Source: Gymnothorax reevesii
Taxonomy: Eukaryota > Chordata > Actinopteri > Anguilliformes > Muraenidae
DNA: 64,000 nucleotides
Direction of reading: 5' to 3'
Assembly: GCA_029721435.1 (NCBI GenBank)
Contig: CM056580.1
Coordinates: 70,953,367 to 71,017,366, forward strand
Part shown: positions 7,609 through 55,029 of the stretch, in pieces
Position numbering within the stretch: the first letter of the stretch is position 1
Layout of the letters: every line of letters begins with the position of its first letter
Program-made: the position numbers and the translations under genes
Notes under the pieces: model-generated
The model's input: only the letters and a program-made list of their open reading frames with translations
What the model was told of the DNA's origin: nothing
Databases searched by the model: none

Positions 7609-8770
7609 TTAGCTGCTGGAGCCCAGTGCTGCGTTTTCTTATGACAGTCAAACTATCAACTTGCTCCCAGTGTAAATATAATTCAGGTTTCATAAGGCTA
7701 CCAATACTGCTTTTTGATCTAAACCTGGTTTGATGTGGTCATTCAGGGAAAAAAATTGCATTTTTTTTCTTCCAGTTTTCAGATATAAAACGTTTTAAAA
7801 ACTTTACAATTTACGAACAAAATTTTGTTCATAAACCATCATCTGGCTCCCAGTGTTAATATAATCCAGGTTTCTAATGTCAATTTGCAGTATTTTTTCA
7901 CCAAGACCTGGTTTTATCTGGTCATACAGGGACAAATCAGGGAAATTGCTTTTTATTTTTGGCTGTTTTCACAATTAAAAAAAGTTTCTCAAACCTAATT
8001 GCTGTTCATAAACCATTATCTGGCTCCCTGGTATTTATATGATCCAGATTTCCCGGGACTATTTGCACCAGATATGGTTTTATGTAGTCATACAGGCAAA
8101 TATTGGTGAAATTGCTCCTTTTTATGCCCCCGCCCCCCAAAGAGGAAAAGGGGCATTATGTCGACACCATGTCTGTCCCTCGTCCGTCCGTCCGTCGTCC
8201 ATTAACTTTTTGTTTCCGTGGGATAACTATAGAATCTCTCGTCGGATTGATGCCATTTCTTAATGGCGTATTGGGAGTGGCTAGAGGAAGGTTCCTTTTG
8301 AAAACCAGCGTCGTGCGATATCTAATATGGCTGCCACAGCCGCCATCTCAATATGCCCTTGATCAACATACAGGCCGGGCCATATGCCACGCTCTGCGTT
8401 GCTCTTGTTATTTTTATAAATAAATTGTTTCACAATCCTAATTGCTGTTCATAAACTATCATCAGGCGCCCATTGTTAATATAATCCAGGTTTCTTATGT
8501 CTTCCAACATTACTTATTTATCTGGACCTGGTCTTATGTGATCATTGCAGGGAAAAATCTGTGAAATTGCCCTTTCTTTGTTTTTACAAATAAACATTTT
8601 TCTTAACAATTGTTTTCTACAATCTTTACACTTCTATTGTTGATATAGTCCAGGTTTTACAAGTCCAACTTCGCTAGTTTTGATGTAGCATTGGGTTTAT
8701 CACTCTGCTTACGTTGCTTTTGCTGCTTTGATTGTCATAAGAAAGCGCAACGGTAGGCTCCAGCAGCCAA
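7609..8770. mobile_element. TIR-bounded element made of about five 175-bp tandem units
   Basis: The ends are imperfect inverted repeats of about 44 bp: AGCTGCTGGAGCC then TTTTCTTATGACAGTCAAA on the left (7611-7651), and the reverse complement at 8727-8770. Between them is a tandem array whose unit contains GGCTCCCAGTGTTAATATA, then ATCCAGGTTTC, then CTGGTTTTATGTGGTCAT. Anchors fall near 7663, 7845, 8022, 8465 and about 8630. The long gap between the third and fourth equals one unit plus a 287-bp insertion. No protein is encoded. The class is not recognised. Confidence 0.75.
8122..8408 (-). mobile_element. Hairpin-ended element A, inserted in a tandem unit
   Basis: Read on the minus strand it begins ACAAGAG (8408 leftward), has a GGCATATGGCCC arm about 23 bp in, and ends in a hairpin of GGGGCAT-type arms (8123-8157) with terminal GCATA. 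A run of CCGT units (8176-8196 on plus) sits next to the hairpin. It interrupts the third 175-bp unit of the surrounding element, so its borders can be read by comparison with neighbouring units. The interior has a palindrome, ATGGCTGCC with GCCGCCAT. Same plan as elements D, E, F and I. Confidence 0.7.
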
Positions 8771-8897
8771 CTGCATTTTTTCATGTGATGGACATGATGG
8801 TGTTGCCTGTGCTACTGTGAGCTTTAGTGTTGAACTGCAGAATTACTTGGGTGGACAGACTCATGCAATAACTGTAATGATGGCTGCTGCTAATAAG

Positions 8898-8932
8898 TAT
8901 GGCTGCTGCTCCCTAGGTGAACAGCAGCCATA
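8898..8932. repeat. Perfect 11-bp stem hairpin
   Basis: TATGGCTGCTG (8898-8908) is followed 13 bases later by its exact reverse complement (8922-8932). The surrounding 8771-9189 otherwise shows no gene or repeat that I recognise. Confidence 0.7.
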
Positions 8933-9189
8933 GAAATGTTTGCATCGTTACTTAATTTAAATATCTTTGTTAGATATCAACATTGTGCTGGTAATCTGTT
9001 GTAGTGCGAGTGTTGGCACTTACCTGTCAAGAAGGAATAATTAGGGAAACCTCTGCACCTCTGCACCACTTTTCAGCCCCTTATACTCCCACAAATGTCT
9101 CCATCTCAGAAATGCTTCTCTGATGTTCACCTACGTCTGATCTCCCTAATTTTGACCTTTTCTGTCTCTTTTTTTGTCCTCCAAGAGCT

Positions 9190-9945
9190 TTGAGCTCTTG
9201 ACTTTTTAGCTCACCTGACAAAGTCAAATGAGCTTATGTCATGGCCCGTTTGTCCGTCGTTCGTCGTCGTTCATTGTCGTCGTTCGTCGTCGTCGTTGTT
9301 CGTTGTCCGTAAACATCTTCTCCTCCGAAATCACTGGGCCTATGAATCTGAAACTTGACAGGTACCTTCCTACGCATGAGGACACCAACGTTTGCTCAAG
9401 GCGTTCTGATCCGATTTAAAACATGGCCGCCACGGCGGCCATATTGAAAATCACATAATTGGCCATCTGAAAGGTATTTATGCACTTATTCAGCTGAATT
9501 TTGCTATGTAGTTAGCACCTGGCAAGATACATCACATATCATATGACTTTTTCCGTATTTTGAATTTTGACCTTGCTTTGACCTTCAACTTTATACAACC
9601 CCTGTGAGTTACATTGAAATCTTTCAAAATCATCTTCTCCGAAACTACTTGGCCAATGAAGCTAAAACTTGGCAGGTATCTTCCTACTCATGAGGACACC
9701 AAAATTTTTCAAGGCGTTTCGATTCAATTTCAAACATGGCCGCCATGGCCGCCATATTGAAAATCACATAATTAGCCATCTGAAAGCTATTTATGCACAT
9801 ATTCAACTGAAATTTGCTATGTAGTTAGTACGTGGCAAGATGCATCACATATCATACGGTTTTTCCCGTATTTCGAATTTTGACCTTGCTTTGACCTTCA
9901 ACTTTATACAACACCTGTGAGTTACATTGAAATCTTTACTACTAC
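9190..9945 (-). mobile_element. Element B: hairpin, CGTC-rich tract and two 317-bp tandem units
   Basis: The left part has an AGCTCA/TGAGCT hairpin (about 9208-9234) followed by repeated GTCCGTCGTTCGTC (9250-9312). Two tandem units follow, starting at 9314 and 9631, 317 bp apart and ending near 9937. Each contains CATGGCCGCCAYGGCGGCCA-like sequence, a near-palindrome with YY1-like GGCGGCCAT cores. Read on the minus strand, the hairpin end is GAGCTA followed by A residues, like element I. No clear opposite terminus is found, so this copy may be truncated. Confidence 0.65.
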
Positions 9946-10244
9946 TACTTAGGGATTGCATTTCCGCACCACATCCATAAAAGTCGGCATTGCGGGAAGG
10001 GGAGATTGAAAACCAAAGTTGTCCATTTTACACCTCTCTGAAATAGAAGGAGCCAAAACTTGGACAGTAAGTAGTATACAACATGTCTGAACATCTAAAC
10101 AATAAGTTTTCACAATTTCTGAAAAACACCAGTTTGGTGACCTTCGACATTGAACATTGAAGTTCAGCTTCAAAATTAGCTGGCACAGACCTCCATGACT
10201 GCATCCTCATTTTCACACTGAATTGGCCCTCTTGTTAACTCAAT
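9946..10244. other. Unassigned DNA
   Basis: A short ACT repeat (9938-9949) follows element B. I see no gene in the rest. Confidence 0.4.
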
Positions 10245-10977
10245 GGGCTCTAAATTCATAGACCAGGTGCAGGTACGGCACAGGCGCGGCGAATGGGGGG
10301 AGCGCTGCACCGATAGGGTGTATGCAGGTGTATTTTGCAATTTCGTGCCAGGTGCAGCCCGGCGCAAGTACTCCTCTGTGCCGCCTCTGTCCCTCCTGCC
10401 GGCACAAGTGGCAAAAAGGGAGGAGAGAAGGCGTAGAGTGGGTTTAACACAGCCGAGTCAAATCTTAACCAATCAAATGAGCTCCTAACCTTTTGGAATT
10501 GGAATTAAGAAGCCTCTGTCCTATATCTGCATGATGCGTAAATGTTGCATTTTACTTTGCTGCTTCAGGCATGTTTTTTGCTCCGCTTACGTCTATATTA
10601 AGCATTACGAATATGAGTTAGCTGGCTTGCTAGGGCATTCTCGAATTATTACCATTAGCGAACTTGAATGGAATTTCAAAATGAAACTACGTCAGATCAT
10701 TCAAACTTATAAAGTTGGAATGAAATACGATGGTTGCTCATTTATTTCTTCTGCCTGCATCATTGGGAAGAGAAACGATGGCTAGCGTGTTCCTATTATT
10801 ACACCCTGTTGCTGCTAAAAATTTTGGGATTAACATGCATGGTCAACAATGCAAGATACGTTACACATTTATTTTCAATATGTGATCTTAACTCAGTGCG
10901 AGATCATAGCAAATCAGGCTGTATTCCTTTCCCCCACTAAAAACGATAAAACCTAAGTGACAATAATGGTATTAGGC

Positions 10978-11125
10978 CGCTTTCACATTGGACGCGAAAC
11001 AAATCCCTCACATGACAGACCACACTCAAAGCCAATGCAAAGACGCGAACATACGCGTGTATTCGCGTCTTTGCATTGACCCCGCATACATTCAGTCCGC
11101 TCCCGTCCAGCGCGAAAGCAGCTGA
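10978..11125. repeat. Palindromic fold-back element nested in the 1.4-kb transposon
   Basis: A near-complete palindrome. Its outer arms are GCCGCTTTCACATTGGAC and the complement of GTCCAGCGCGAAAGCAGC. Its core is a perfect 16-bp stem, AATGCAAAGACGCGAA (11034-11049), pairing with 11062-11077 across a 12-base loop. The same core motif builds the 97-bp array at 16810-17310. Confidence 0.8.
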
Positions 11126-11180
11126 AGGACACATACCCACATAGCCTACACACACACTCGTGCGCCCACATGCACACATC

Positions 11181-11203
11181 TTTCTCTCTCTCTCTCTCTC
11201 TGA
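11181..11203. repeat. CT microsatellite
   Basis: About eleven CT dinucleotides in the interior of the 1.4-kb element, preceded by a CA-rich stretch. Confidence 0.85.
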
Positions 11204-11665
11204 TCTGACATCAGGGCAATCAATATAGATACTATAATTTACGAGCTGATTCAGATAGTTACATTAAATAGTGGTTGCTGTAATTATTTATTGCATTGAA
11301 ATGTGCCTGACATTATGGAAACTTGCCTGTGAGGTTTCGGTGACGTGTGCGCACTGTATGCCGGTCAGCCAAATTACCACTGCACAGAAAGTAAACCGGG
11401 TTGGAGCTGGCAAGCTCTCTGCGCACATTCAGCAGATTCTTTATCCACGAAATTGTCACTGCATCATGATGAATATGTGACACCTCCCCCTACTACACCG
11501 CCACACCAATCTCGGCGCACATCCGTCTACCAAATTGTCAAAGTGGCGGCGCACGGTGTTGCATCACACAAAATTACTACTGCGCGGGCTGCACCGGACG
11601 AAATTACCACTGCGTGGGCTACGCTACGCTGCACCACCCTGCGCTGTGCCAAGAAATTAGAGCCC

Positions 11666-13689
11666 AATGCCTCATGCAGAGACTTATATTGTAATAAAAC
11701 TGATTGCACCCATGATATCTGCAAACCCACCAGTGTGGCATCAGACCCTTACTGACATGGCAATAGCAGCAAAATACTGGCATTTTCTCTATTTGAGAGG
11801 TCCTTTCAGTGACAGTTATAAATACTATTCTGACATGCCACCTGCCAGTATCGACAGTAATCCAATTTATCTTGTATGGCCTGAAAAAAATTGACATCCT
11901 CCCACCATTTTAGCCTTTGGCCAATGGCAATATCCCAAGCAGCGACAGATAGGAGATGCATTCAAAGCTATTAAAGGATCCAGAGTCCTAGAATGTGAAA
12001 AACATGCAGGATGGGATCTTGAGAGAATAAGAGAACTGCAAATAGATTTAATTTAAATCCTTGAATACAGATTGCAAATGGGGGCAAAATATTTGATTTC
12101 ACTCCAATTCACATTATATTTCAATGAGAGTCTGGTAGTTAATTTCTTTGGAACTTATTTGGAACTTCCTTTCACATCGATGTCACACTGATCCAAGGCC
12201 TGTTTGAAAATGTTTCAAATGCAACAACTGGCCTATCGCGACAGCAAGTTTGTATATCGCCCATTAAAACTGAGAAAATATAAAAGAACTTCTCAAAATG
12301 CATGAATATTTTGATTAAATCTACAAAGATGAGAAAAATAACAACAAATAATGGGAAATTCCACTTTTGTATACCTTATGTTTAAATTAGTATTTGAAAT
12401 GGCATCATCATTCTTGTGAAATGAGATGGCTGAAAGTTATTTTTGGAAGCTGCCGCAAAATACAGTCATCAAATTGGGAGAATTTTTTTAATGTTACTGA
12501 ATTACATTTAATTCCAATTACTACTGCTATCCTTCTCCTTAAATGACCCAAATGACCTTGAAAGATGCACAGCCACTGAAGTCTCTGATGTCTTTGAAAT
12601 TCAGCTTTGCTTTAGGAAGAGATAGCAATGAGATTTCTACTGAGATTAATCACAGATTCATTTGACAGGAGTTAAGACTTCTCTGAAGACCTAAGGGAAT
12701 ATTCTGTGATGAAAAAAAGTTAGGTTGTAAGTGCTTTGTTTCACTTAATACTATCTGTGGGGAACCAGATGAAAGAAACAAAAAATCTGAGTGTAGTTCG
12801 CATGTGCTTATGAGCTGCCTTCAATAAAAAAAAGAAACAAAAAAATAATAATCCTCCCCAGTTGTTCACATAACAGACGGAATCTTCTGTGTGGCAGAAC
12901 TGTCCTACAGCTCTCAATTAAAAATATTCAGAGCTCCTCATTTGTTGAGCCTTACAAACAGGCATTCTCAATATCCCTGATCCTTGTTCTCTTTCCTTGC
13001 TTAGACAACATTCACAACCCCCCAGAACAGCATGATCAAATCCCTGCCTGAACATACTAAAAGCAATGCTTATTAAAAGCCCTGCTTTAGTAGTCAAGTA
13101 CATGTCTGCAAGGCATAGTTGGCATTCATGTACACCCACTTGCCATGACATCACAATCCATTTTTAGAATTACTTACTTCAGTTGACTTAGGGGCCAAAG
13201 GGATGCGCCAGAAAATAAATGGCTCTTTTTTGTGTGTGTTTTTTTTTTCTTTGCAAAGCAGATATGGGCCCAAGTGATTTTGACATCACATAGCCTTGTT
13301 GCAGCGAGTTGAAGAGATTTGAGGCCAAGGTCCTCTCTCCCAGGGCAAACAGTGCTGCTGGAACGGAGAACTCACTGACACGTGACATTTACTCATGAGG
13401 CTCTGCCCTGTGGGTGAGGACACAACAGTTGGGAAAAGCAGCCTCTGTTCTAGGCTGTGGCAAAGCCACAATTCAAGCATCTAATTTGAGCCATGAGTTT
13501 ATGGAGTAAAATATTGTACAACCTTTCAACAATGTAAGGTTGCAGATATTTAGATTATATAAAGTACTCACTGTGACTGTATGATAAAAGCTGGAGTGAA
13601 AAAAATGTTGAACACAATGCTATCAAAATTAGAAAATGTAAAAAAAAAAAAAAAAAAACATTGAGTCTATTTTTCAATTGAATGTCATG
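11666..13689. other. Unassigned AT-rich DNA
   Basis: No exon, RNA gene or paired repeat ends seen. A run of A residues lies at 13641-13658. Short reading frames on both strands lack splice signals and similarity to anything I recognise. Confidence 0.4.
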
Positions 13690-14985
13690 AAATAGCATTT
13701 AAGAGAGTGACAGCACGAGAAAAATACGAATTTATTATATGTTGGGTTTTACGAAATGAACTAATCGCGAAAACCAGTAGAATGCAAAAGGAGGCTTTAT
13801 TTCTGAAGGGAGAAACCCCCCAACAGAGCTGGCAACAGTACAATGTCCGTAATCCAAAAATCAGAGTCCAATGGGCGAAATCCAGAGTCATACACAGGGC
13901 ACCAATCACAAAACCGTTGTCAGACAAAAAGAGGTCGAAAAACAAGAATTCAGCAAAAGTACAGGGAATAGGCAAAATTCTAGGGTGTCTATGGTGGTCC
14001 AGTCAGAAAGATAAATCACAATGACTCAAGGCGAAAACAAGCGTGGCACAGGAAACAAGGAAGAACGATCTGACAAGAAAGTGAACCAAACAGACATCTT
14101 ATATACACATCCGGTAGAGCACATGATCAGGGAGCACAGGTGCAATCAATGGTAACAATAATCAGGGAGTGACACATTAGGAATAAACTAATTACATGAA
14201 TTTGGCTGTAGCCAAAACGCCGACAGGGATCACAAGACAAATCTATGGACAGAACAACAGCTCCAGTCAAGGAGTACTAAAGAGTATAGATTAGAGAAAG
14301 GAAAGCACAAAGTATTTGTGGAGAACCACAGAAAATCGCAGCAGAGATGATAGGGAAAGGAAAGGAGGCGGAGACTAGAATAGGGCGAATGCTGAGAGTT
14401 TGTTAGTCAATCAGTAAGTGCAGCTATACAATCCCGAGTGCTGGTTAGTAAGTTAGTCCAAATATACAGGGTTAGTGTTGGTTAGTAATTAACAAAAACA
14501 ATAAACTATTAGTATGCGTTAGTAAGATAGTAAAGAGAGAGGAAGGAAGAACAAGAGATAATGAAAGAAGATTGAAACCCAGAAACCAATAAATCACCCG
14601 AACGAGTGGCACACTAGACAAGGGTTCGTGAGCAAAGATACACACATGACAAGACAGGGGAGACAAAGTGCAAAGCATGGAAACATGGCATGGGAAATGA
14701 ACAAGGCAATGAAAACAAAACATGGCATGGAGACTAAGAAACTAAAACATGAAAAATAATAAAACATGAATCTAATTACCAACACACAATACTCAATCCT
14801 AGAATGGTCAGACATAAGCAATGGTCAAGAATGCGCAGGTCAGTCAAAACATGGCACTAGGCCAGGCACAGAACTAAACATGGGCATGGCAAAAAACATG
14901 GAACATGGCATGGCAGAAACGGAATCACAACAATTATGTATTCAAAAATATCTGTTTTTTTTTTTAAACATGACATTGTGACAAC
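13690..14985. repeat. Probable interspersed repeat, ACATGGCA-rich
   Basis: The right part is built of loosely repeated ACATGGCATGG, AAACATG and GACAAGACA motifs. The left part resembles decayed retroelement flank commonly seen in fish. I could not pair terminal repeats or find a coding domain, so the class is open. Confidence 0.3.
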
Positions 14986-15048
14986 TCAGGAAATTAGTTA
15001 AAATTGCACTGATTGTCTCATTAATTAATAAATGACTATTTCTACCCA

Positions 15049-16617
15049 TTAAAGGGGACCTATTATGCTGATCCTTCTTTTAATACATATGAGTAATGTT
15101 ATAAAGTTGATTGTCCATACTCAACCTCTGAAAAGTTTCTATACATAAGATACAGGGGTTTTGCCGTAATCCGAGAATGTGATTGTGTGAACGTGATTTC
15201 CTCTCTGAACAGCTCCTCCCGAGATCTTCACGAGATCTGGGCAAAACCTGACATCAGGTTGTGCCGTCCAATTAATACAGACCAAGCCAGAGCCAACCAC
15301 GGCACTGGACCGGTCCACACCGGAACCTATTCTAGCAGGCACTAACAACAGCAAATCATACTATGCCTTATGCCATCTACACTTTTGGAAATACAAAAGA
15401 AGAACTGCAGATCATTTGAGGTGGATTTTTGTCAGCATCTCTCCCAAAGTTGCTTGTCCGTATACTTTTGGACGCAAAGAAAAGCACCTATTTCTCTTCC
15501 AAAAGACAATGACACCAGAAATCAGTGAGTAGTGTTTTTTTGTCTGCTGGCAGCAAAAAGCCACGGCCAAAGGGAACGTTAGCTGCTTGTGCACAGCATT
15601 TCACCAAAGACAGCTTTGTTAATAAAGGATAATTTGACAGAGGATAAGCGTTTCAGCTGCTTCTCAAATCTGAAGCAGCTGCATCCATCAAGCGCTCGGA
15701 GCCACAAGCTGTAAGTAACGATATAACTGCAAATAATGTAAGTGAAGCTAATTGGTGGCTAGCACGACCACTAACGATAGTTAGCACTAACAACTGGCCT
15801 CAAGCGCAGGCCTTCTAAAATATCTGAAGATAAATCCTAGATTGGTCGCGACTGTCCGTGACTCACAGACAAAGAAGCTGCAAGTTGCTTTTACTGCATA
15901 AGCCAACCTGACGTGATAGTCAGTTGATTGTGGCTGTAGCACTGCGGCTAATGTAGCCAAGTTACCGTTGCTAATATTTGTGTCCTAAATATGCAAGAGT
16001 GATATCAGGGGAAATTCTACAGAAGGTGTGTGAACATATACCTCATTTGATGCTAACTTTTTATACTTGTTTGTCATTTGGATGCTTAATACAACTGTCC
16101 ACAGTAACGGAACTTGCTGTCTGTAAAACCTGTTTTGCAAAGGTTTGTCTCTGTGGTTGTTACGACCCCTCAGTCACGAGCCACTGCATGTTAGTTTGCG
16201 TGCCGTGCTAAATAACAATTCTCCTGGTTAACTTACATGCAACAATTCTGATCGGTATGCTTGTGTTATTTCGGTAAGCATCAATGTGGCAGTTTCATCA
16301 TAACGTTGCCCAGCTGTAGCCACTACAGTCGAAACTAACCGAAGAGGTTGCTGTTTGTGTCTGCAAAGTTGGGCTGAAAAGGCTTTAGTTAGACCAGATG
16401 TAGGTTTTGCAGAGCTTGGGATATGTGTTTGGGTTTGTTTACAGCTGCTTGTGATCGCTTCACTTATCCATGACTGGGATCAGCCGGATACTTCACAAAT
16501 GTCTGGGCAAGCTCTCTGGTGCTACCGTGAAAGCAATGCAAAACGCAGAGGCTCCACCGTGTCTGGTATAGCAAACGATTTCTCTGCACTACCGTGACAT
16601 AATTTCATCCCCCTTTA
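15049..16617. mobile_element. Probable hAT-like non-autonomous element with AAAGGGGACC end
   Basis: It opens with TTAAAGGGGACCTATTATG, a terminus I know as widespread in fish genomes. Near 16595-16617 is a degenerate inverted match (CATAATTTCATCCCCCTTTA). The interior has no recognisable transposase. No 8-bp duplication could be read, so the right border is approximate. Confidence 0.5.
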
Positions 16618-16809
16618 GAAGTTGTTGTGGCTAATAAAAAGCCGAAAAAGGCGGAGATTAAATTGGAAATTCTTTCCTGTAGAAGTGACCGATTCGCTGG
16701 CTCCACATAAGCAAGTTGTCCGCGCTAATGGAACTTACAGTCTGTAAAACCTGTATTATACTCATAACATAACCAGAGCTCTCTCTAGCTGTCGCGTACT
16801 ATCCATAAA

Positions 16810-22450: not shown

Positions 22451-22499
22451 GAATCATGAAATGAGAGGTTTTTAATACTGAAAAATGTAACATAAAGAA

Positions 22500-27181: not shown

Positions 27182-27184
27182 TTA

Positions 27185-28844: not shown

Positions 28845-31240
28845 ACAAGAGTCATCAGAAGGTGACATTTCCCCTGGGCCCTGATTATTCACCAAAGTCA
28901 TGTCAATTCGACACCTTCAAAGGAATTCAAACAAGAATGTTGAGGTGATTTTCCTCTGGAAGTATGTACTGGCAACATCTACTATAGACTATGAACCACA
29001 TGTTGACAAAGGCAACAATAAAACTAGTCATTAATGAACAGTGTTTTAATTCTGCTCTGGCAACACACCCAGCCCTGCGACCAAATTCATGTCACTTCCA
29101 TGGAAAGGAAAAAAAATTTTTTTTTTTTAAGAAATCTGAAAATATTAAAAGGCACCACTTCAGTATGGTGGTAATACACATGCAAAGTTTCAGAAAGATA
29201 TAATGAACAGTTTTTCAGTTGTGCTCCAGAAACGAACCTATCTTTGTACAGAGCCCAAATGCAACTGGTCTCCACGGAAACGAAAAAAAGAAGATTTTCA
29301 GAAATCTGAAAATATCAACAAGCACCACTTCAGTATGTGGGTAATACACATGCAAAGTTTCAGAGAGATATAATGAACGGTTTTTGAGTTGTGCTCCGGA
29401 AACGAACCTATCTCTGTACAGAGTCCAAATGCAACTGGTTTCCATGGAAACAAAAAAAATAAGATTTTCAGAAATCTGAAAATATAAAAAGGCACCACTT
29501 CAGTATGTGGGTAATACACATGCAAAGTTTCAGAAAGATAGAATGAATGGTTTTTGAGTTCTGCTCCAGAAACGAACTAGGCCTGATGTGCACTAAGTCC
29601 ACATTCGTTTCCATGGAAATGGCAAAAATAGTAATCCTGAAGTTTCCAAAATAGCAAATATAGGCACATCTTGACTATACATTTTGTCGAATAGATTTAC
29701 AAAGTTTGGTACTGATATCTTACATAGTTTTTCAGTTCTGCTCAGGAAATTAACTCAGTGTAGTTTGCACTAAGTCTAGATTTGTTTCCATGGAAATGAC
29801 AACAAGAGCCATCTGGCAATGGCATATCCCCCCAGCTCCCCACATTCATGGATTAACTGTTCAATTTACATGAGTAAATATACTACAGTATTATAGGACT
29901 TGGTCTGAAGTATTAAGGTTGCCTTACTATGAAATGGCAATCCAGACAATGTTGTGGTCAGACCAATATGTGTTCAGTGTCCCTGTGTCCATCTGTCGAG
30001 GTATGTTGGTGTAGATGTGGTCAATCTGTGTTCTACTGTCTGTCTGAGGACATTACCTGTAGTAGTTGTGGTTGTTTGTTGATCTTGCTGTTCATGTTAC
30101 CCGCACTCAGTAAGAGGAAGTGGGCTGCCATGTGTGCCAGGAGTTTCCTAACTTCACATTTTATTTATATAAAAATAATGGTGGGGGGATAACAAACATT
30201 TCAAAAGACAATAAATCTAATTGAACACATGAAACTATTTTTCACTGACACTGGTGTAGTCGAAGATGGCTTCAGAGGTACTGGCCAAACAAAATCATGA
30301 GTGAACTGATAATTCCACCTGATAATTCCACCATTGAAGTTCACTTTCACACACATTTGCAAGAAAGACACAAAATAATTTTTACAGAAACTAAATGTGA
30401 AAAGGCACATGTGGAAATTATGCTGAACAAGTTAATCAAGTTTGGTCAAAATGATCAGTGAGCTTAGTCCAAATTCAACCATGTTTCCATGTAAAGTGCA
30501 AATATTAAAAATTGTAGAAATTCCTAAGTACGTATCATAAAGCCCATTTAGATATAATGCTTAACATATCTATTAAGTTTGGAGAAGTTCGGATGTATAG
30601 TTTCTGAGATATGGCCTGGACAAGCGAAGTTGCAATTCACACAAGTTTCCATGCAAACCGCAAAAAAAAAAAAAAAATAAAAAAAAAAATATTCCAGAAA
30701 TTCTGAAGTATGAAAAGGCACATTCAGACACCGTGCTCAACATATCTGTCAAGTTTTGTGAAGGTCGGGTGTATAGTTTGAGATATGGCCGGGACAAGCT
30801 ACTGTAAGTTCCATTTCACACAAGTTTCCATGTAAACTGCAAAAATGAGAAATTCAAGAAATTCCTAATTATGGAAAGGCACATCTCGACATCATGCTCA
30901 ACATATCTGTGAAGTTGTGTGAAGATTGGATGTAGAGTTTCCAAGATATGGCTCGGACAAGATATGATTACGGATGGACGCACAGACGGACACACTGATG
31001 ACTATATCCCCTCTGCATTATGCTGTCGGGGGGATAAAAATAGGAATCACGAAATTTCCAAAGTAGCAAAAGGCACATCTAGACTATACATAGAATACAT
31101 GTGCCATGTTTGGTGCTGATATCTTGCATAGTTTTCGAGTTCTGCTCCGGAAACAAAATGATTACGGACGGACGGAAGGACAGACAGACAGACCGACGAG
31201 GCGATGCCTTTATCTCCCCGCATTTTATGCCGGGGGGATA
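28845..31240 (+). mobile_element. Hairpin-ended element E with tandem units, interrupted by element D
   Basis: It starts ACAAGAGTCATC (28845), has a TTTCCCC arm about 23 bp inside, and ends with the hairpin CCCCGCAT/ATGCCGGGG and terminal GGGGATA (31240). The body contains units of about 120-130 bp (29090-29570 best) sharing GGCACCACTTCAGTATG, TACACATGCAAAGTTTCAGA, GTTGTGCTCCGGAAACGAA and GTTTCCATGGAAAC. A tract of GGACGGACGG and GACAGACA (31165-31195) precedes the hairpin. Its last unit is split by element D, and its sequence resumes exactly after D. Confidence 0.7.
29802..31036 (+). mobile_element. Hairpin-ended element D, nested inside element E
   Basis: It begins ACAAGAGCCATC, with the arm TATCCCCCC 23 bp in (29825-29833), and ends GGGGGGATA (31028-31036), the exact complement of that arm. 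A local hairpin is also possible: TATCCCC with GCAT (31005-31018) and ATGC with GGGATA. Several 120-bp units in the body share CACAAGTTTCCATG, AAAGGCACAT, GCTCAACATATCTGT and GAGATATGGC. A GGACGCACAGACGGAC tract precedes the hairpin. Joining its flanks restores a normal unit of element E. A-rich tract at 30661-30690. Confidence 0.75.
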
Positions 31241-38720: not shown

Positions 38721-38894
38721 ATAAGTCAAGCCGTTCTTATGGGAATTGAGATAAGAACTTGCTGCTAACATTCCTGGAGCCCAGAGCAGTTCTGCCATTG
38801 ATTTCTGGACCCTGTGCCTTTTCCATGTAGCACCTATGAACTTTATGGGGAGAATACTACAGTTTTAGGAATGCACCCTGCGGTCATCCACCGA

Positions 38895-41592: not shown

Positions 41593-41775
41593 ACAAGTCG
41601 ACATGGTCTACAACATCCCCCGCCAATCGTGTGCTTCCTATTTTTCGAACTCCATCAAGGCCTTTATGGTCTGAAGCTACACACCGAATTTGGTTACTGT
41701 ATCTGTAGTAGTTTCTGAGTAAAGCTGTCCCCTTTATCTCGGACGGACGCACGGAATTCGTGTTGGCGGGGGATA
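41593..41775 (+). mobile_element. Minimal hairpin-ended element F, 183 bp
   Basis: The smallest and simplest of the family. It starts ACAAGTCG (41593), carries ATCCCCCGCCAA at 41615-41626, 22 bp in, and ends TTGGCGGGGGATA (41763-41775), which is the reverse complement of that arm. A short CGGACGGACGCACGG tract (41740-41754) precedes the end. It has only one body unit. Flanks are ...CAAA on the left and AAAAGG on the right, fitting insertion within an A run. Confidence 0.75.
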
Positions 41776-44617: not shown

Positions 44618-45310
44618 TAACAACAACATGACACAACTAGGCTTATGCCGTCGGAGGTGACGGCTGGGGGTATATCCCCGAACGCCCCCAATCCTCCAAT
44701 TCCCCAATCCTTGAATAGACCTTGAAAAGAATTTTATTTGAACTTAATTTCAGGTTAATCGGACAAATGGTTCTGAAGATATGGCCAAAATGGTAATTTT
44801 CCATCACAAAGCGCCACCTGGTGGCAAAATATTGAACCATACAGGTATGATGTCATCATGTGACACATTGTGAGGTCATGACCTCACAGTTGCACATAGT
44901 TTTATGTCAATTGGACAATTGGTTCCAAAGATATGGCAAAAATGGTGAATTTTATGTGACAAAGCTCCACCTTGTGTCAAAATTTTGAATCAAACAGGTA
45001 TAGTGTCATCGTGGGACACATCCTCAGGTCATGACCTTTCATTTGCACTTGATGTGCGGTCAATCGGACAAATATTTCCAGAGACACGATAAAACAGTGA
45101 TTTTTCAGTTTTTGGCCCCTGGTGGCCAATCTAGAAATTGTAAAGAGTCCAAAATCGAATTAGTTCTTCCTCTTTATCATACTTACTTATATGCAGAACA
45201 TGAAATTTCTAATTGAAATACCACTGAAGTTATCACGTTAACACGTAGGGCGGCGCGGCGGCGGTCGGACCAATAACATAATATCCCAGAAACGCCGTTC
45301 GGGGATATAA
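44618..45310 (+). mobile_element. Hairpin-ended element G with about 140-bp tandem units
   Basis: TATATCCCCGAACG (44671-44684) and its exact reverse complement CGTTCGGGGATATA (45296-45309) bound the element. The right arm can alternatively pair locally with ATATCCC at 45281-45287. Three diverged units between them share TCAATTGGACAAATGGTTCC, AAGATATGGCAAAAATGG, CAAAGCGCCACCTGGTGG and TATGATGTCATCATGTGACA. A CGGCGCGGCGGCGG tract precedes the end. The exact left border is uncertain; an ACAACAACATGAC motif lies at 44620-44632. Confidence 0.6.
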
Positions 45311-45787
45311 ATATAATAAACAGAGCTGGCTAATGCGTGAAAGAAGCACAATAAAATACTTTTATAGAACCATCCCGGGCATTTTGTGCAGGAGATAGTG
45401 ACATGACAATGTTCCCTCAAGTTTGGGCTTTCAAATCAAATGTATGACACTCAGATTTCAGGGAAACATGAGAAAAAAAATCTAAACTGATGCAGTAAAG
45501 TCCTTTAATATGTGTACATTAATAAATTTATAATTTTAGCAGCCTGCCTGGATATTTGAGTTGCAATTAAATGATGAATGTAAGCTAAAAGCGCATCTAG
45601 TTGCTAGTACATTACTGTACACCTAAACTGGGTAATAAGGAGACCAGAGTTTGCTTTAAACATCTAAAAACATCTAAAGAGGAACTACTCATGATCTGAG
45701 GCCCACCATCTCAGCAGTGAAGCTTGATTGAGAGATACCAACATTTGGAAATGACAAAGAGGAGTATGTGACCACCTGCACACTAAA

Positions 45788-47213: not shown

Positions 47214-47307
47214 CAGTATCTCACAAAAGTGAATACATCTCTCACATTCGACAATTAACTGATTATATCTTTTCAAGGGACAACGTTACATGAATATATA
47301 TAATATA

Positions 47308-48938
47308 CACTCAACAAAAATATAAACGCAACACTTTTGTTTTTGCTCCCATTTGTCATGAGATGGACTCAAAGATCTAAAATTCATTCCAGATACACAA
47401 TATTACCATTTCTCTCAAACATTGTTCACAAATCTGTCTAAATGTGCGATAGTGAGCACTTTTGCTTTGCTGAGACAAATCCATCCCACCTCACAGGTGT
47501 GCCACATCAAGATGCTCATCAGACACCCTGATTGGTGCACAGGTGTACCTTATACTCCCCACAATAAAAGGCCACTCTGAAATGTGCAGTTCTGTCTCAC
47601 AGCAAAATGCCACAGATGGCGCAAGCATTGAGGGAGCATGCAATTGGCAAGCTGACAGCAGGAATGTCAACCAGATCTGTTGCTCGGGGATTGAATGTTC
47701 ATTTCTCCACCATAAGCCGTCTCCAAAGGCGTTTCAGAGAACATGGCAGTACATCCAACCAGCCTCACAACCGCAGACCACGTGTAACCACACCAGCCCA
47801 GGACTTCCACATCCAGCAGGTTCACCTCCAAGATCGTCGGAGACCAGCTACTCAGACAGCTGCTGAAACAATTGGTTTGCATAACCAAAGAATTTCTGCT
47901 CAAACTGTCAGAAACCGCCTCAGGGAAGCTCAACTGCATGCTCGTCGTCCTCATCGGGGTCTTAACCTGACTCCAGATCGTCGCCGTAACAGACTTGAGT
48001 GGGCAAATGCTCACATTCGATGGTGTCTGGCACGTTGGAGAGGTGTTCTCTTCACGGATGAATCTCGGTTTACATTGTTCAGGGCAGATGGCAGACAGCG
48101 TGTGGGGCGTCGTGCGGGTGAGTGCTTTGCTGATGTCAATGTTGTGGATCGAATGGCCCATGGTGGTGGTGGGGTTATGGTATGGGCAGACATCTGTTAT
48201 GGACGAAGAACACAGTTGCATTTTATTGATGGCATTTTGAATGCACAGAGATACCGTGATGAGATCCTGAGGCCCATTGTTGTGCCATACATCCATGAAC
48301 ATCACCTCATGTTTCAGCAAGATAATGCATGGCCCCATGTTGCAAGGATCTGCACACAATTCTTGGAAGCTGAAAATGTCCCAGTTCTTGCATGGCCAGC
48401 ATACTCACCGGACATGTCACCCATTGAGCATGTTGGGGATGTGCTTTACCGGCGTATACGACAGCGCGTACCAGTTCCCACTAATATCCAGCAACTTCGC
48501 ACAGCCATTGAAGAGGAGTGGACCAACATTCCACAGGCCATAATTGACAATCTGATAAACTCTATGCGAAGAAGATGAGTTGCACTGCATGAGGCAAATG
48601 GTGGTCACACCAGATACTGACTGGATCTGAGTCCCCAGACCCCCAATAAAGCAAAAACTGCACATTTCAGGGTGGCCTTTTATTGTGGGCAGTCTAAGGT
48701 ACACCTGTGCACTAATCATGGTGTCTGATGAGCATCTTGATGTGGCACACCTGTGAGGTGGGATGGATTGTCTCAGCAAAGCAAAAGTGCTCACTATCAC
48801 ACATTTAGACAGATTTGTGAGCAATGTTTGAGAGAAATGGTAATATTGTGTATCTGGAATGAATTTTAGATCTTTGAGTCCATCTCATGACAAATGGGAG
48901 CAAAAACAAAAGTGTTGCGTTTATATTTTTGTTGAGTG
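47308..48938 (+). mobile_element. Younger Tc1 element with intact transposase and 285-bp TIRs
   Basis: A complete 1,631-bp element. The left TIR (47308-47592) starts CACTCAACAAAAATATAAAC and the right TIR (48655-48938) is its near-identical inverse; by eye I count about eight differences over 285 bp. TA residues lie outside each end (47306-47307, 48939-48940). It sits in an AT-rich part of the left TIR of an older Tc1. The long TIRs fit the IR/DR group of Tc1 elements. Intact coding and similar TIRs indicate recent insertion. Confidence 0.9.
47607..48578 (+). CDS. Tc1-family DD34E transposase, apparently intact
   Basis: 323 codons without interruption, close to the usual 340 of Tc1 transposases. 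It cuts its element at the TIRs and reinserts it at TA, acting in the nucleus. Residues 1-50 form a helix-turn-helix (IGKLTAGMSTRSVARGLNVH) of the paired-like DNA-binding region, NRRPR at 55-59 is a basic GRPR-like/AT-hook stretch, and a second helix-turn-helix spans about 75-110. The catalytic triad is complete: D151 in FTDESRF, D239 in QQDNAWPH and E274 in SPIEHVGD, with exactly 34 residues between the last two. A glycine-rich HGGGGVMVW block lies at 185-193. The ATG is 15 bp inside the left TIR edge. From memory, this element resembles Tc1 copies reported in both teleosts and lampreys. Confidence 0.92.
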   Translation: MPQMAQALREHAIGKLTAGMSTRSVARGLNVHFSTISRLQRRFREHGSTSNQPHNRRPRVTTPAQDFHIQQVHLQDRRRPATQTAAETIGLHNQRISAQTVRNRLREAQLHARRPHRGLNLTPDRRRNRLEWANAHIRWCLARWRGVLFTDESRFTLFRADGRQRVGRRAGECFADVNVVDRMAHGGGGVMVWADICYGRRTQLHFIDGILNAQRYRDEILRPIVVPYIHEHHLMFQQDNAWPHVARICTQFLEAENVPVLAWPAYSPDMSPIEHVGDVLYRRIRQRVPVPTNIQQLRTAIEEEWTNIPQAIIDNLINSMRRR

Positions 48939-49231
48939 TATATTATATATATATTCAATATATTCATGCATATATATTCAATATATTCTAAAGTAGTCGT
49001 AAAATATGTGTAGCAGTGTATACTTACTGCACTGTCCAAATAATTGAACAAACAGTAATTATTTCCAAAATGGGTGGCAAAAGTGATTCCACACCCCAAT
49101 TGGTAATGGTCAACCAAGCAATGAAACATGTGTTATTCATCATGTTTATGCTGTTGTCTGTTCGACTGGGCCATATGAGGTTGTGTAACGCGTTGAAGGA
49201 TTAAATTGTGGTGCTTTGGGTGCAATGCTCT

Positions 49232-50190
49232 GCTTCTGATCACTGGATGGTCAACATATCACCTCATTGGAAAGAACTCTCTGAGGATCTGAAAAAGAGA
49301 ATTGTTACTGTGCACAAAGATGGTCTAAGCTACAAGAAGATCTGTGAAACCGTGAAACTGAGTTACAGCACGGTGGCCAAGGTTATTCAGCGGTTTTCCC
49401 AGATGGGTTTTACTCGGAACAGGCCTCGTCAGGGTCGACCAAAGAGGTTGAGTCCCCGTGCTCTGCATCAGGTGCACAAGTTGGCTTCAGAAAACAGATG
49501 AAGGAGCGCAGGCAGCATTGCTAACGACGTTGCAGCAGTGGGAGAACAGCCAGTTAGTGCTCAGACCATACGCCGTGCACTGCACTAAGTCCATCTGCAT
49601 GGTCGTCGGCCAAGACGGAAGTCTCTTCTGAAGCTAGCCCATAAGTAAGCTCAAAAACAGTTAGCTAAAGACAACCAGTCCAAGAACATGAACCACTGGA
49701 ACTATGTTCTGTGGTCTGATGAGTCCAAGATAAATTTGTTCGGCTCAGATGGTGCCCAGCCTATGTGGCGGTGCCCTGGTGAAGAGTACAAAGATAAGTG
49801 TGTACTGTCTACAGTCAAACATGGTGGTGGCAGCATCATGGTCTGGGGCTGCACGTGTGCTTCATTGATAGAATAATGGATTTCAACATGTAGTGTGACA
49901 TTCTGAAGCAGAACATGATACTCTTCCTTCGGAAACGGCAGTTTTCCAACATGATCCAAAACACACCTCCAAGATGACAACTGCCTTCCTGAACAAACAG
50001 GGTGAGGTTGATGGTGTGGCAAAGTATGTCTCCAGACCTAAATCCAATTTAGCACCTGTGGGGCATCCTCAAGAGGAAGGTGGAGGAGCGGAAGTTGTCC
50101 CAACATCCACCAGCTCCATGGTGTTGTCATGAAGGAGTGGAGGAGGATCCCAGCACAACCTGTGCAGCTCTGGTGAATTCTATGCCTAGG
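49232..50190 (+). pseudogene. Dead Tc1 transposase of the older element
   Basis: Segments in changing frames match a Tc1 transposase from end to end. HWKELSEDLKKRIVTVHKDG is the N-terminal helix-turn-helix (49258 on), QGRPKRLSPRA the linker, HWNYVLWSDESKINLFGSDG holds the first catalytic Asp (49691-49750), and KHGGGSIMVWG follows. FQHDPKHTSK retains the second Asp but has lost two residues of the usual HDNDPKH. SPDLNPI is followed by TAG at 50050-50052 exactly where the catalytic Glu is expected. Stops also occur at 49499, 49586 and 49645. It cannot make an active enzyme. Confidence 0.85.
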
Positions 50191-50479
50191 AGAATCAAGG
50201 CAGTGCCTGACAACAATGGTGGTCACTAAATATTGAGAATATGGACACCAATTGGCATGCTGACAGTGAGGTGTACTCACTTTTGTTGCCTATCATTTTG
50301 GAAATAGTGACTGTTTGTTCAGTTATTTGGACAATGCAGAAAATCTAAACTGCTACACATATTGTATAATGACTACTGTAGAATATATTCAGGTTTCATT
50401 TCTGTAATGTTGCCCCTTGAAAAGATATAATAAATTAATTGTCAAAATGTGACAATGTTCTCACTTTTGCGAGATTCTG

Positions 50480-50899
50480 TAGATATCACATCTTCATCAA
50501 GCTAATGAATGTTTTGGCCGAAGAAAAACATTGGTTAGCTAGCCTCTACATTTGAATACATACACATCCCACTGTACCACAGACGCAAGCCGCATACTAC
50601 TCGGTCCGATGCCATTCAAATTAATTGCAAATTTATATGATAAAATAATTTTAAAAATTTTGATTGATAAATTGGAGTTTTAGGACATTTATGCGGAGAA
50701 CGGATTTTCTATGAAAATTTCGGAGTAACTCCGCCGAAATTTGAGTGGTTGGCATCTCTGCAGTACTAAAGCAGGAGCATGTACGGTTGCCATTAGAACT
50801 GCTTCCCTTGCATTTATTGATGTTAAGACTGCAGACATAAGTAGCAGCATTCTGCATTGTGCATGGCAATTTTATCAGCTCAGATTCAGCATCAAAATT
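50480..50899. other. Unassigned DNA
   Basis: No clear feature. A minus-strand reading frame of 156 codons over 50651-51121 has no recognisable domain and overlaps the Tc1 fragment on the other strand. Confidence 0.4.
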
Positions 50900-51170
50900 C
50901 ATCAAATTGCACTTCACAGAGCAGATGTAGAATGGCCTGATGCATGAGGCAGCCAAAACCCAAGGCAAAGCAGTGGAATGTTTGGCAACGTCTGATTCAG
51001 TCAACTGACCTACATCCAGTTGAGCGTGAATTTCACTTCCGGAAGGCAAAATGTCCCAAGAAAAAGCGGGATCTTGAGACAGCTGCAGTGAAGGCCCTGC
51101 CGAGCAGCACCAACCCAGCATTTAGAGACGTCTGCAGCCCTGATCTGACCCTCTGACACTGAGAACGGCT
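50900..51170 (+). pseudogene. Tc1 transposase C-terminal fragment
   Basis: At 50944-51156 the plus strand reads WNVWQRLIQSTDLHPVEREF, then KKKRDLETAAVKAL. This parallels the Tc1 C-terminus (VLxWPxQSPDLNPIE, then helices before the C-end), with the catalytic Glu kept in HPVE. The rest of the element is missing or unrecognisable. An independent, much older remnant next to the nested Tc1 pair. Confidence 0.5.
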
Positions 51171-53560
51171 GACTCCTGTTACCTGGGAGGCAGGTGTAAA
51201 GACAATCTGACCTTGGTAATCCGTTGCACAAATGGTGCAGTTAATTTCCCAGGTATGATAGAAAATAAAGGGCGAATTCAGAAATGAGGACCAAATTTGA
51301 GTTCCTCGAATCAATGAGCTTCAGACTTCTAGCAGTTGCTGACTGCAAATGATTGGCTTCCAAGTATTAGTGTTGGAGCCATTTGTTTATTTTTTACCTT
51401 TTCTCCCCACACACCATAATTTCCCATTCATGCCCTATTGTTTCGTTTTGGTTGCAATTCCATTATCTACCACCAGGGAGAGTTTGTCTTTGAGTCAATT
51501 TCTATTCTATTTAAATGTGTGGCCTGCCAATTACAGGCAGGTGTGTTTGGGGGAAAGCATACAGTTTTTTGACCGTGTCGGTGGCTGTAGCGTTGATCTG
51601 TAGATCTGTGTGGTGTGACAGGTACTCTTGTGCGGCTAAATACCAAAAGTCATATTTTCACGATACGGAATTAAATGGGGTTACACTTTTCCCAAAGGTA
51701 CTTAATCTCCGTTTGTATTTTTCTGGCCTGATGGACAACCTATGGTTGACACGCGTCTAACTAGTGCACCCCTTCACCCCTCTAGTGATCAATTGGTAAG
51801 GTCGCTACAATTAGAAAATAAATTTATCATTATGCTAGTTTGTCCATTTACTTTCGAGCCCCTGAAATCAGCGGGGGTAAGTGCAGATATATGCGATGAT
51901 ACTTCACACATCATTTCTGACAAAACTCTTAAAGCTGAAAGCTGAGACTTCAAGCATATTTGATTGATTCATTTCAATTCCACTGTAGAGGCAGACAGAA
52001 CAAAAATGATGAAAACTGTGCCACTTCCCAGATAATTTATCGATCCTGACTGCATAGAATTAGAAATAGTGAAGTATATATAAAATATACATCAGTCAAA
52101 TTGAATTACTCACAGATATCGCTATTTAACTGATTGATCACATTCTACAACAAATCTACCCCACAGCAGTTTCTTGTGTACCCCTCCCCATTATAACATC
52201 TCACATCACCACACCTCTAAAACAAGCAGCTGATCATGGTCAGACAATGCTAGTTTAAAGTACTACATCCCAGTAGGAGTGTACACACTGCCTTTTCTGG
52301 TTTCCTGAGTCTGCCAGTCTTTGACACAACAAGGACCCAATATTTTTGAATTTAATTAAATGTGGGGGCAGTCATGGACCGTGATGGAAACCTGGAGTTT
52401 AGCGTTCCTGAGATCCCACTGGCTGAGAGAAAAATTGCTTTATCCATTAACAGGGAAACTGACAGGATAATTCAAAATCTAATCTAGCCAACACACTGGA
52501 GCCACCGATAGTGTGAGAAATTAAAGAATTCATTCTCTACAGCAGTGAAGACCCATCATGCAACTTCAATGTCAGTTGAAAGGTTTTGTGGGTCCCACAG
52601 ACCAGTTAGGGCATCCAGCCGAAACTTGGCACAACTGATAAATTAACTGTGGGAATGATTACTATATACAGCCAACTAAGAAATAATGAGAAATTTGACA
52701 AGAGGGTGCATTTACATTTACATTATATATTTTAACATGAATGACTTACATCACGGAGGCCATACAAATGATTGCATAAAAATAAATAAATTACATCTTA
52801 TTCAGACTGCCTAAAAAAACTGGATGCAGCAATTTTGAGTAAAATCCACAGAGCTTAAATATATAAAAATATCAACTAATAATGAAAATCATAAAATACC
52901 AAAACTTGACAGAGTATCCTTGACACTCGAATGGAAAAATAAATTACTCCATGCTCTAATACTTCTATAAGCAATTTCTATGTAACAGTACTGGATAACA
53001 TCCTGATCGATCATTTTAGCATTACTAATTGAAACAGCAACAATGTGGGCTCATGGCTCGCTCATCCTACAGTACACATGCATGAATGGACCCCATGGAC
53101 TGGTACAAAATCAGGCACATGCCTAAGCTGACTGCGACTGAAAAACCTATAATTTGGCTACTGCGTCAGTGAGGAAAACAAGGATTTGCATTGGAGGACC
53201 TGCAGAGTCTTATTGCTTTCTAGTTGTGCTGAGTGGTCAGGCAGTTTACCGGTGTACCGGTTATAATATTTTGCATGTCAACCTACCGATGCGTGTATGG
53301 CACATATAAAATACCACCATTTTTCCAGAAAAGTGTGTAATATGTAAACAAATGGTGCCAGGCACAACAAACCCTGCCCCTCGCACATACTTTGACCAAC
53401 TATTCCTAAAGTCAATAGGCATCTATGGGTCAGTGGCGATCCCTAAACTGAATATGGGGTGAATCTGGCCATTAGTTTTGCTGCTAAAGTGTTAACAAAC
53501 AAACAAAGAAACTGAACCAAAAACAATACCCCTTGCCCTCTCCCTTCGGGCGGGGCTAGG
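51171..53560. other. Unassigned DNA
   Basis: No host exon or repeat unit is recognised in these 2.4 kb. Confidence 0.4.
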
Positions 53561-55029
53561 TAATGAAAACAGAATGCAATGATTTGCATTCATAGTCATT
53601 TCAAATTTATCGTCATGATCAAAGTCATTTAAACCCTATATTTAACTGAAAGTAGCGCAAAGACAGGTGTTGAAACTGAAAAAATTTATTGTTTTTGGAG
53701 AAACATCATTTCATTTTGAATTTGATGCCAGCAACACATTTCAAAAAAGTTGGGACAGGGGCTACAAAAGACTGGAAAAGTTGAATGATGCCAAAAAAAT
53801 ACTCCTAGTGGAACATCTCACTGCAAAGAAGGTTAATTGGCGATAGGTCAGTGACATGATTGGGTCTTTCACACAAAGATGGCAATGGCTTCAACACTCA
53901 GGGAAAGACTTCACATCTGTAAAGACACCATTAATGCTAAATAATATATTCAGATTTTGGAGTTCCATATACTGCCATCCAGACATCCCTTTGACAGGGA
54001 AGGCCTTGCATATTTCAGCAGAACAATGCCAAACACAATGTTCTGCTGTATTACAATAACATGGCTCCGTAGTGAAGGAGGCTAGGTGGTAAACTGCCCT
54101 CCCTGCAGGCCAGACCTGATGCCCATTAAAAATATTTGGCGCATTATGATAAAAAATAACAAAGGAGTCAAAGTGTAAAGTGTTGATCAGCTGAATGCCT
54201 ATATCAAGAAAGAAAGGAAAGACATTTTTCTTCCAAAACTATAGCAGTTGGTTACCTCCACTCTCAAAAACTTTCAGAGCATTGTAAATAAAACAAGTAG
54301 ATCAGAGGGATCTAATAGCTGCGACCTGGCCTAGCATCCGTTACGTGGCCTAGTGTCCATGACTGGTGGTTTCTTGTACAAGTGTGACCTCGAAATTAGC
54401 AAATGACCTTGAAAATCAATAGGGAACCCTTCCTCTGTACCAAGAAGCTTGCTGTAAGATTTAATAGCCATCCATCAAGTTAAACTCGAGTTACGGTGCG
54501 AAAACTGTGAAATCGGGGCAAAATTGACACTTTTTTGACCGGTGTGACCTTGGGATTCGACAGATGACCTTGAAAATCAATAGGGAACCCCTCCTCTATA
54601 CCAAGAAGCTTGTTCTAAGATTTCATAGCCATGCATTGAATTAAACTTGAGTTACGGTGCGAAAACAGGTGGTGAAGGTCAATAACTCCTGAAAATTTCA
54701 TGATACGACGACAGGAACATGGTGAAAAAGGCGTCACAGACGGACGGACAGACAGAAGCGTTCGTTGAGCTGCTTGGTCCCAGCTAAAAATAGGTGAAGC
54801 AACACAGTGGAAAACACTGCCCCTGTCCCAAATTTCTTGAAACATGTTGCTGGCATAAAATTCAAAATGAGCGAATATTTTTCAAAAAACAGTAAAATTT
54901 CTCCGTTTCAACATTTTATATGTTTGCACCATTTTCAATTATATATAGGGCTTAAATGATTTGCAAATCATTCCATTCTGTTTTTATTTACATATTACAC
55001 AGCCTCCCAACTTTTCTGGAAATGGGGTA
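53561..55029 (+). pseudogene. Internally deleted Tc1 element carrying insert I
   Basis: The left end has AAAACAGAATGCAATGATTTGCA and the right end the inverse (ATTTGCAAATCATTCCATTCTG), the TIR of a common fish Tc1 family. Inside are AAAAAAGTTGGGACAGGGG, then coding remnants such as the CACCATTAATGCTAAATA block and GGCGCATTATGA (WRIM). The N-terminal half of the transposase is deleted, between about 53890 and 53905. Element I interrupts it at 54293-54786, after which the C-terminal end resumes with GGTGAAGCAACACAGTGG. No functional protein. Confidence 0.75.
54293..54786 (+). mobile_element. Hairpin-ended element I inserted in a Tc1 copy
   Basis: It begins ACAAGTAGATCAG (54293). TAGCTGCGACC (54316-54326), 23 bp inside, pairs imperfectly with GGTCCCAGCTA at the right end (54776-54786). 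A local hairpin AGCTG/CAGCT lies at 54768-54785. Two tandem units of about 180 bp share TGACCTTGAAAATCAATAGG, GAACCCCTCCTCTATACC, AAGAAGCTTG and GAGTTACGGTGCGAAAAC. A GACGGACGGACAGACAG tract (54739-54755) precedes the hairpin. The interrupted Tc1 sequence reads through if the insert is removed. Confidence 0.75.

Follow-up and report, generated by a model that had tools for sequence, protein, structure and literature searches.

What kind of mobile element produces several hairpin-ended repeats with the same end plan and different end sequences within one short piece of a fish genome? The question is raised by a 64,000-nucleotide stretch of Gymnothorax reevesii DNA (assembly GCA_029721435.1, contig CM056580.1, here C8, positions 70,953,367 to 71,017,366; hereafter the window), in which an earlier note, made from the sequence alone, had picked out five elements, A, E, D, F and I. 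Each was said to start with ACAAG, to carry an arm 22 or 23 bp inside, and to end in a hairpin that complements this arm. The window sequence agrees with all five placements. The elements are very probably non-autonomous Helentrons (HINEs, Helitron2-type rolling-circle transposons), as the earlier note had suggested from their resemblance to Helentron-associated elements. This kind of element is already known, Helentrons occurring in many animals, and the Helitron2 and HINE papers describe the same layout (PMC3627910, PMC4067079, PMC7492417). What this genome adds is several families whose spacing and terminus stay constant while their arms change. The orientation first proposed has to be reversed, so that the hairpin marks the 5' end and the 3' terminus is CTTGT, whose complement is ACAAG.

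Layout of the five elements

From 5' to 3', in the conventional orientation, the layout is TTTT/TA-arm, 5' hairpin, GTCC/GTCT tract, body, second arm, palindrome and CTTGT/T. The 5' arm stands directly after the T-run and starts with TATC, TATG or TAGC; GTCC/GTCT tracts and tandem units are present in the element bodies. What had been called an ACGG tract is this GTCC/GTCT microsatellite, which follows the 5' subterminal inverted repeat (subTIR) and inverted repeat (IR) as in HINEs (PMC7492417). The distance from ACAAG to the arm, counted by eye, is 23 in D, E and I, 22 in F and 23-24 in A, which upholds the offset originally reported. The 18-base spacer described within that offset contains the 3' palindrome, which had been overlooked. 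The features are as follows (ATIR, asymmetric terminal inverted repeat).

8123-8408, plus strand: element A, in HINE orientation TTTT / TATGCCCC ... CTTGT / T (39 non-window matches at 91-95% identity, best 40 of 2306 candidates; loci L079 and L080)
8123-8134, plus strand: A 5' arm (5' ATIR/subTIR) TATGCCCCCGCC (window sequence, L079/L080, consensus)
8150-8156, plus strand: A 5' hairpin partner GGGGCAT (sequence; consensus stem test)
8373-8384, plus strand: A 3' arm, GGCGGGGGCATA in L079 and L080, with two changes in the window copy (copies, consensus)
8386-8402, plus strand: A 3' palindrome GCCACGC-TCT-GCGTTGC, imperfect (sequence; 4-bp exact core in 259 of 3000 shuffles)
8404-8408, plus strand: A 3' terminus CTTGT (sequence; genome edge matches)
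28845-31240, minus strand: element E, with a tandem-unit body, containing D (37 of the 39 best non-window matches have the ACAAG edge; four loci show the hairpin end)
31229-31240, minus strand: E 5' arm TATCCCCCCGGC, identical to the D consensus arm (sequence, consensus, fetched loci)
31211-31219, minus strand: E 5' hairpin partner (sequence)
28867-28878, minus strand: E 3' arm, decayed in the window copy, with about 3 mismatches of 11 (sequence)
28851-28866, minus strand: E 3' palindrome, GTCAT against GTGAC, with one T-G pair (sequence)
28845-28849, minus strand: E 3' terminus CTTGT, ACAAG on the plus strand (sequence; genome edge matches)
29802-31036, minus strand: element D, inserted in an E tandem unit (best 40 of 1673 candidates; 28 loci compared; empty site)
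31025-31036, minus strand: D 5' arm, consensus TATCCCCCCGGC (fetched loci, consensus)
31005-31013, minus strand: D 5' hairpin partner, consensus GGGGGGATA on the minus strand (9-bp consensus stem, 1 of 3000 shuffles)
29825-29836, minus strand: D 3' arm, consensus GCCGGGGGGATA on the minus strand (consensus)
29808-29823, minus strand: D 3' palindrome GCCAT-tgccag-ATGGC (fetched loci; 116 of 3000 shuffles)
29802-29806, minus strand: D 3' terminus CTTGT (fetched loci)
29569-29682, plus strand: second E unit, the empty site for D, 92 of 114 bases identical to D's joined flanks, with the same five-A run (alignment)
41593-41775, minus strand: element F (best 40 of 1968 candidates; of 42 non-window matches, 41 have the ACAAG edge and 2 the hairpin end)
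41763-41775, minus strand: F 5' arm TATCCCCCGCCAA (sequence, fold of the window copy)
41615-41626, minus strand: F 3' arm TTGGCGGGGGAT (sequence, layout scan)
41593-41597, minus strand: F 3' terminus CTTGT (sequence; genome edge matches)
54293-54786, minus strand: element I (best 40 of 2035 candidates; ends in 28 of 30 loci; empty site)
54776-54786, minus strand: I 5' arm, consensus TAGCTGCGACC (fetched loci, consensus)
54768-54773, minus strand: I 5' hairpin partner GCAGCT (fetched loci; 254 of 3000 shuffles)
54316-54326, minus strand: I 3' arm GGTCGCAGCTA (fetched loci, consensus)
54298-54314, minus strand: I 3' palindrome TAGATC-cctct-GATCTA (fetched loci; 8 of 3000 shuffles)
54293-54297, minus strand: I 3' terminus CTTGT (fetched loci)

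Ends defined by genome copies

The elements were searched against the 2.17 Gb assembly, and in each search the best 40 candidates were scored, from first-look totals of 1673 (D), 2035 (I), 2306 (A), 1968 (F) and 856 (left part of E). Because only these 40 were scored, the candidate numbers cannot be read as copy numbers, and identities refer to the closest copies only. A, F and E were queried with 60 bp of flank, which places the ACAAG end at query base 61; D and I were queried without flanks, and their ends were judged on fetched genome loci (L-numbers), 28 for D and 30 for I, the window copy included.

The ACAAG end recurs in genome copies of all five elements. Non-window matches start at query 48-61 in 39 of 39 cases for A, at 43-60 in 41 of 42 for F (the remaining one at 32), and at 54-62 in 37 of the 39 best for E (the remaining two at 65 and 92). 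Alignment of D runs from base 1 in 21 of 28 loci, and ACAAG is letter-perfect in 19 of those 21; for I both ends could be placed in 28 of 30 loci, L040, with its 5' end unaligned, being among the 28. The claim of a defined hairpin end holds well for A, D and I and more weakly for E and F. Matches to A stop at 345-354 in 36 of 39 cases, where the element end is 347, and the other three stop at 357, 371 and 385. The hairpin side of D is reached in 20 of 28 loci, two of the other eight ending with the fetched piece. The hairpin end of E was found in L018, L021, L023 and L024, all of them D-containing loci, and is imperfect in L021 and L023.

Closest-copy identity to the window copy is 97-98% for I over about the first 374 bases from ACAAG, with 78-93% in the remainder, 91-95% for A, 90-97% for F and roughly 77-86% for D and E, so that the families seemingly differ in age within one genome. 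Most of the 28 measured copies of I are 706-751 bp long, and the window copy is shorter.

Pairing of the arms

Consensus ends were built for A from three copies, the window's included, for D from 21 (5') and 25 (3') of 28 loci, and for I from 26 (5') and 30 (3') of 30 loci. In the conventional orientation they read TTATGCCCCCGCC ... GGCGGGGGCATA-TGCCACGCTCTGCGTTGCT-CTTGT for A, TATCCCCCCGGC ... GCCGGGGGGATA-TGCCATTGCCAGATGGCT-CTTGT for D and TAGCTGCGACC ... GGTCGCAGCTA-TTAGATCCCTCTGATCTA-CTTGT for I. Within a family the consensus arms pair over 12 (A), 12 (D) and 11 bp (I); between families they pair over 0-6 bp, the two arms thus changing together from one family to the next. Shuffled segments equalled the consensus pairing in 0 (A), 4 (D) and 0 (I) of 50,000 trials, and among 200,000 draws of random window-segment pairs at least 11 bp were reached in 0.029% and at least 12 bp in 0.025%. 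The claim of paired arms therefore stands in full for the consensus ends of A, D and I, and less well for single window copies: those of F pair over at least 11 bases and those of I have one mismatch in 11, but A and E show two or three mismatches (by eye).

The 5' hairpin stems of the consensus ends measure 9 bp in D, 7 bp in A and 6 bp in I, and were matched by 1, 63 and 254 of 3000 shuffles, respectively. Exact cores of the 3' palindromes measure 6 bp in I, 5 bp in D and 4 bp in A, matched by 8, 116 and 259 of 3000 shuffles; support for this palindrome is strong for I, modest for D and weak for A.

Target site and empty sites

On the 5' side of I, T stands at positions -4 to -1 in 28, 27, 25 and 27 of 28 copies, and the +1 base is T in 28 of 28; for D the corresponding figures are 19, 17, 15 and 19 of 21, with T at +1 in 22 of 25. 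Empty sites were compared for both. That of D is the other E unit at 29569-29682, which reads TTTT+T and leaves none of the five bases of the A-run unexplained. The copy of I in L043 has an empty counterpart in the window at 54958-55028, again TTTT+T, with no base gained or lost. D and I (L043) have accordingly inserted at TTTT/T without duplication or loss, and the absence of a target duplication, remarked on in the earlier note, is borne out at both sites. Copies of I in L048 and L050 also match uninterrupted relatives, with small T-run differences.

The constancy of CTTGT and TTTT/T also tempers the suggestion that structure, not sequence, is recognised: arms and palindromes do vary between families, as that suggestion would have it, but terminus and target are fixed in sequence.

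Element D is nested in element E

The five bodies had been described as unrelated. This is wrong for D and E: D lies inside E, the last unit of E shows about 62-72% identity to the right part of D, and this identity together with the shared 5' arm TATCCCCCCGGC makes D and E related families. D lies about 170-204 bases from the end of E in the window, L018, L021 and L024, and the sequence outside E differs among the window, L021 and L024, the loci where it is readable; in L023, D adjoins an E end instead. Given the near-constant distance in the window and the first three of these loci, a composite of E and D that moved as one would be favoured over repeated insertion of D into the same T-run.

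An internal TTATCCCCCC arm lies inside D at about window position 30193; it is on the minus strand and faces the ACAAG end of D (391 bp). D itself may be composite, built on a shorter element.

Search for an autonomous partner

PF14214 gave 126 matches in the genome, many of them within long open frames. The Rep genes, with long open frames reaching 2958 amino acids, are clustered, often with equal score and frame length. Helentron-type Rep clusters lie at

C2:79.12-79.35M, C10:17.05-17.41M, C11:35.88-36.32M and C21:13.68-13.99M
C9:12.12-12.20M and 72.43-72.65M; several small contigs; also L067-L069

Intact Helentrons are present in the genome. A frame of 2720 amino acids on C2 contains OTU, DUF6570, Helitron_like_N, PIF1 and Exo_endo_phos domains, and by this domain content is a Helentron. 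The unit is about 16 kb long (boundaries by eye) and lies head to tail in an array of non-coding-looking units of about 1.55 kb that have the same ends. Its 5' end carries a TAGGGTCC...GGACCCTA hairpin, and its other end GAGGACCC, the palindrome GCTGC-TT-GCAGC and then TTTAAT(TA). The layout is the same and the end letters are different, and this Helentron is therefore not an obvious partner for the CTTGT elements.

In the 3' region of the same Helentron, L067:9376-9435 matches mascRNA-menRNA at 54 bits (cut-off 42.5), possibly a captured tRNA-like RNA.

The earlier note had proposed a search for a Helentron Rep/helicase with the same end signature; around five Rep loci (on C2, C3, C10, C20 and C13) none was found. 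For a HINE, an autonomous Helentron with at least 11 bp of subTIR in common would be expected. Three sites on C13 where CTTGT has a 5-bp stem are chance-like, as are exact 10-base upstream matches at CTTGT, with three on C20 and 16 rows on C2; the four C2 rows that were listed are one site, and none listed precedes T.

Alternative explanations

Several results weigh against the reading as non-autonomous Helentrons. Around the five Rep loci there was no exact occurrence of the four family arms, and no CTTGT-ended autonomous element with a fitting arm. For F, only 2 of 42 matches reach the hairpin end, the others stopping within the ACGG-type tract, and a 5' hairpin with the F arm was not seen in the DNA fold of the window copy. 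The +1 base is C instead of T in one of three copies of A. Taken singly, the A and D 3' palindromes and the A and I 5' hairpins are weak by the shuffle test. A blind layout scan of the window found 8 cases where 5.4 were expected; with a hairpin required, it found 2 against 0.35 expected, one of them with a palindrome, under a rule that passes only 21 right ends. A blind scan of the window and the fetched loci, with D and I masked, found 4 against 2.7. Such scans lack power since single copies are mutated; with results near expectation and uneven arms in the window copies, a common plan could not be established from the window by itself. DNA folding of the single-copy window ends likewise gave weak support, and consensus ends are needed for this reason.

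The small excess in the blind scans, the imperfect arms of A and E in the window and the two matches that complete F are what could be said for a plan arising partly by chance, from similar GC-rich hairpins beside A-rich sites picked out by eye. The edges are nevertheless common to genome copies, and in A, D and I the consensus arms are fully complementary; for these three families chance is refuted, and as an account of the shared plan as a whole it is exceedingly improbable. Many copies, short-to-medium size and inverted repeats would also suit miniature inverted-repeat transposable elements (MITEs), short cut-and-paste elements that duplicate their target, yet the repeats here are asymmetric, terminal on one side and 22-24 bp inside on the other, and no duplication is present at the empty sites of D and I, which makes MITEs highly unlikely. 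The 3' palindrome and the lack of a duplication would be shared with non-autonomous elements of canonical Helitron1, which run from 5'-TC to CTRR-3'; the ends here are TA...CTTGT and the target is TTTT/T, and Helitron1 lacks the paired arms and 5' hairpin (PMC3627910) that are present here, so that this reading is scarcely credible. Both MITEs and Helitron1 were rejected from the empty sites and the termini.

A possible mode of action

As non-autonomous Helentrons, the five elements would depend on a protein supplied by another element. From the Helitron literature we infer that a Helentron protein moves them in trans by a rolling circle, with the strand chemistry and a switch as follows. In such a scheme, a Helentron Rep/helicase-endonuclease acting in trans would nick at the TTTT/T edge, and one strand would be peeled off through rolling-circle replication. 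The 3' palindrome with CTTGT would signal the end, replication would stop there, and the released strand would be joined between TTTT and T of the target. The 5' arm would have two alternative partners, its own hairpin partner and the 3' arm; since pairing with one undoes the other, it could act as a switch at the end of the round, as Bao and Jurka 2013 propose (PMC3627910). It is tempting, though decidedly speculative, to suggest that one Helentron machinery in this genome reads the end layout, with its 5' arm able to fold back, the arm's complement 23-24 bp from the fixed CTTGT terminus and the palindrome between these, almost regardless of arm sequence, with the two partners of the arm as the switch, and that arms, hairpins and palindromes therefore change freely between families but only together. 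With this set of families one could test whether end structure or end sequence is what a Helentron Rep reads, and whether the arm is a two-partner switch.

Other features of the window

Two further features of the window recall the same kind of element. A Helitron-like element at 44636-45319 has 14-bp arms TATATCCCCGAACG / CGTTCGGGGATATA and a palindrome GCCGTC-GACGGC (by eye); its end, CTAG followed by T, combines a CTRR-like terminus with paired arms. At 9187-9940 there is a HINE-like 5' end (TTTTTAGCTCACCTG...GAGCT and a GTCC/GTCG tract; by eye) followed by two 313-bp tandem units, for which inspection by eye alone did not recognise a matching 3' end. Elsewhere, positions 3056-3823 hold a serotonin receptor 7-like exon, with 409.6 bits to 5-HT7 in a solved structure whose matched chain we take to be human, and positions 47568-48578 a frame named by eye as a Tc1/mariner-like transposase. 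A mollusc host, considered for the likeness to oyster HINEs, was set aside, since this exon and the mascRNA match of the C2 Helentron indicate a vertebrate.

Comparison with known systems

In Helitron2 the 5' arm lies 0-2 bp from the 5' end and forms part of the 5' hairpin, and the 3' arm lies about 20-30 bp from the 3' end, directly upstream of the 3' hairpin; there is a T at the 5' end, and Helitron-1N1_CRe inserts after TTTT without duplication (PMC3627910). One pair of elements with compensatory changes is described by Bao and Jurka 2013, who propose that the 5' hairpin is lost when the arms pair and that this determines the end of replication (PMC3627910). The present elements resemble Helitron2 in arm placement, 5' and 3' hairpins, TTTT target and lack of duplication (PMC3627910). 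They differ from that report in comprising three families with different arms, a common CTTGT and an offset of 23-24 bp, and in sequences and host; CTTGT has no occurrence in the main text of PMC3627910, taken as text alone, figures apart.

The HINE/DINE-1 elements of Thomas et al. 2014 have subTIRs, an IR by the 5' subTIR (DINE-1), a 3' palindrome, a microsatellite and tandem-repeat core, and a TT target that is left unchanged (PMC4067079). SubTIRs, IR, 3' palindrome, core repeats and a T-rich target are all found again here. The 3' subTIR of mite HINE families lies about 38-60 bp from the 3' end (PMC4067079), whereas here the distance is 23-24 bp; and unlike in HINE/DINE-1 (PMC4067079), no Helentron sharing the ends was recognised around any of the five Rep loci examined.

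Cg_HINE of the Pacific oyster has a subTIR of 11-12 bp with an IR 1-12 bp away, a GTCY/GTCC/GTCK microsatellite on the left, tandem repeats, a right subTIR with a palindrome, and a T-rich target without duplication; CvE and MgE are Pearl elements that the paper also names (PMC7492417). Though the host differs, the elements described here share with Cg_HINE the subTIR and IR, the GTCC-type microsatellite, the tandem repeats, the palindrome and the target (PMC7492417).

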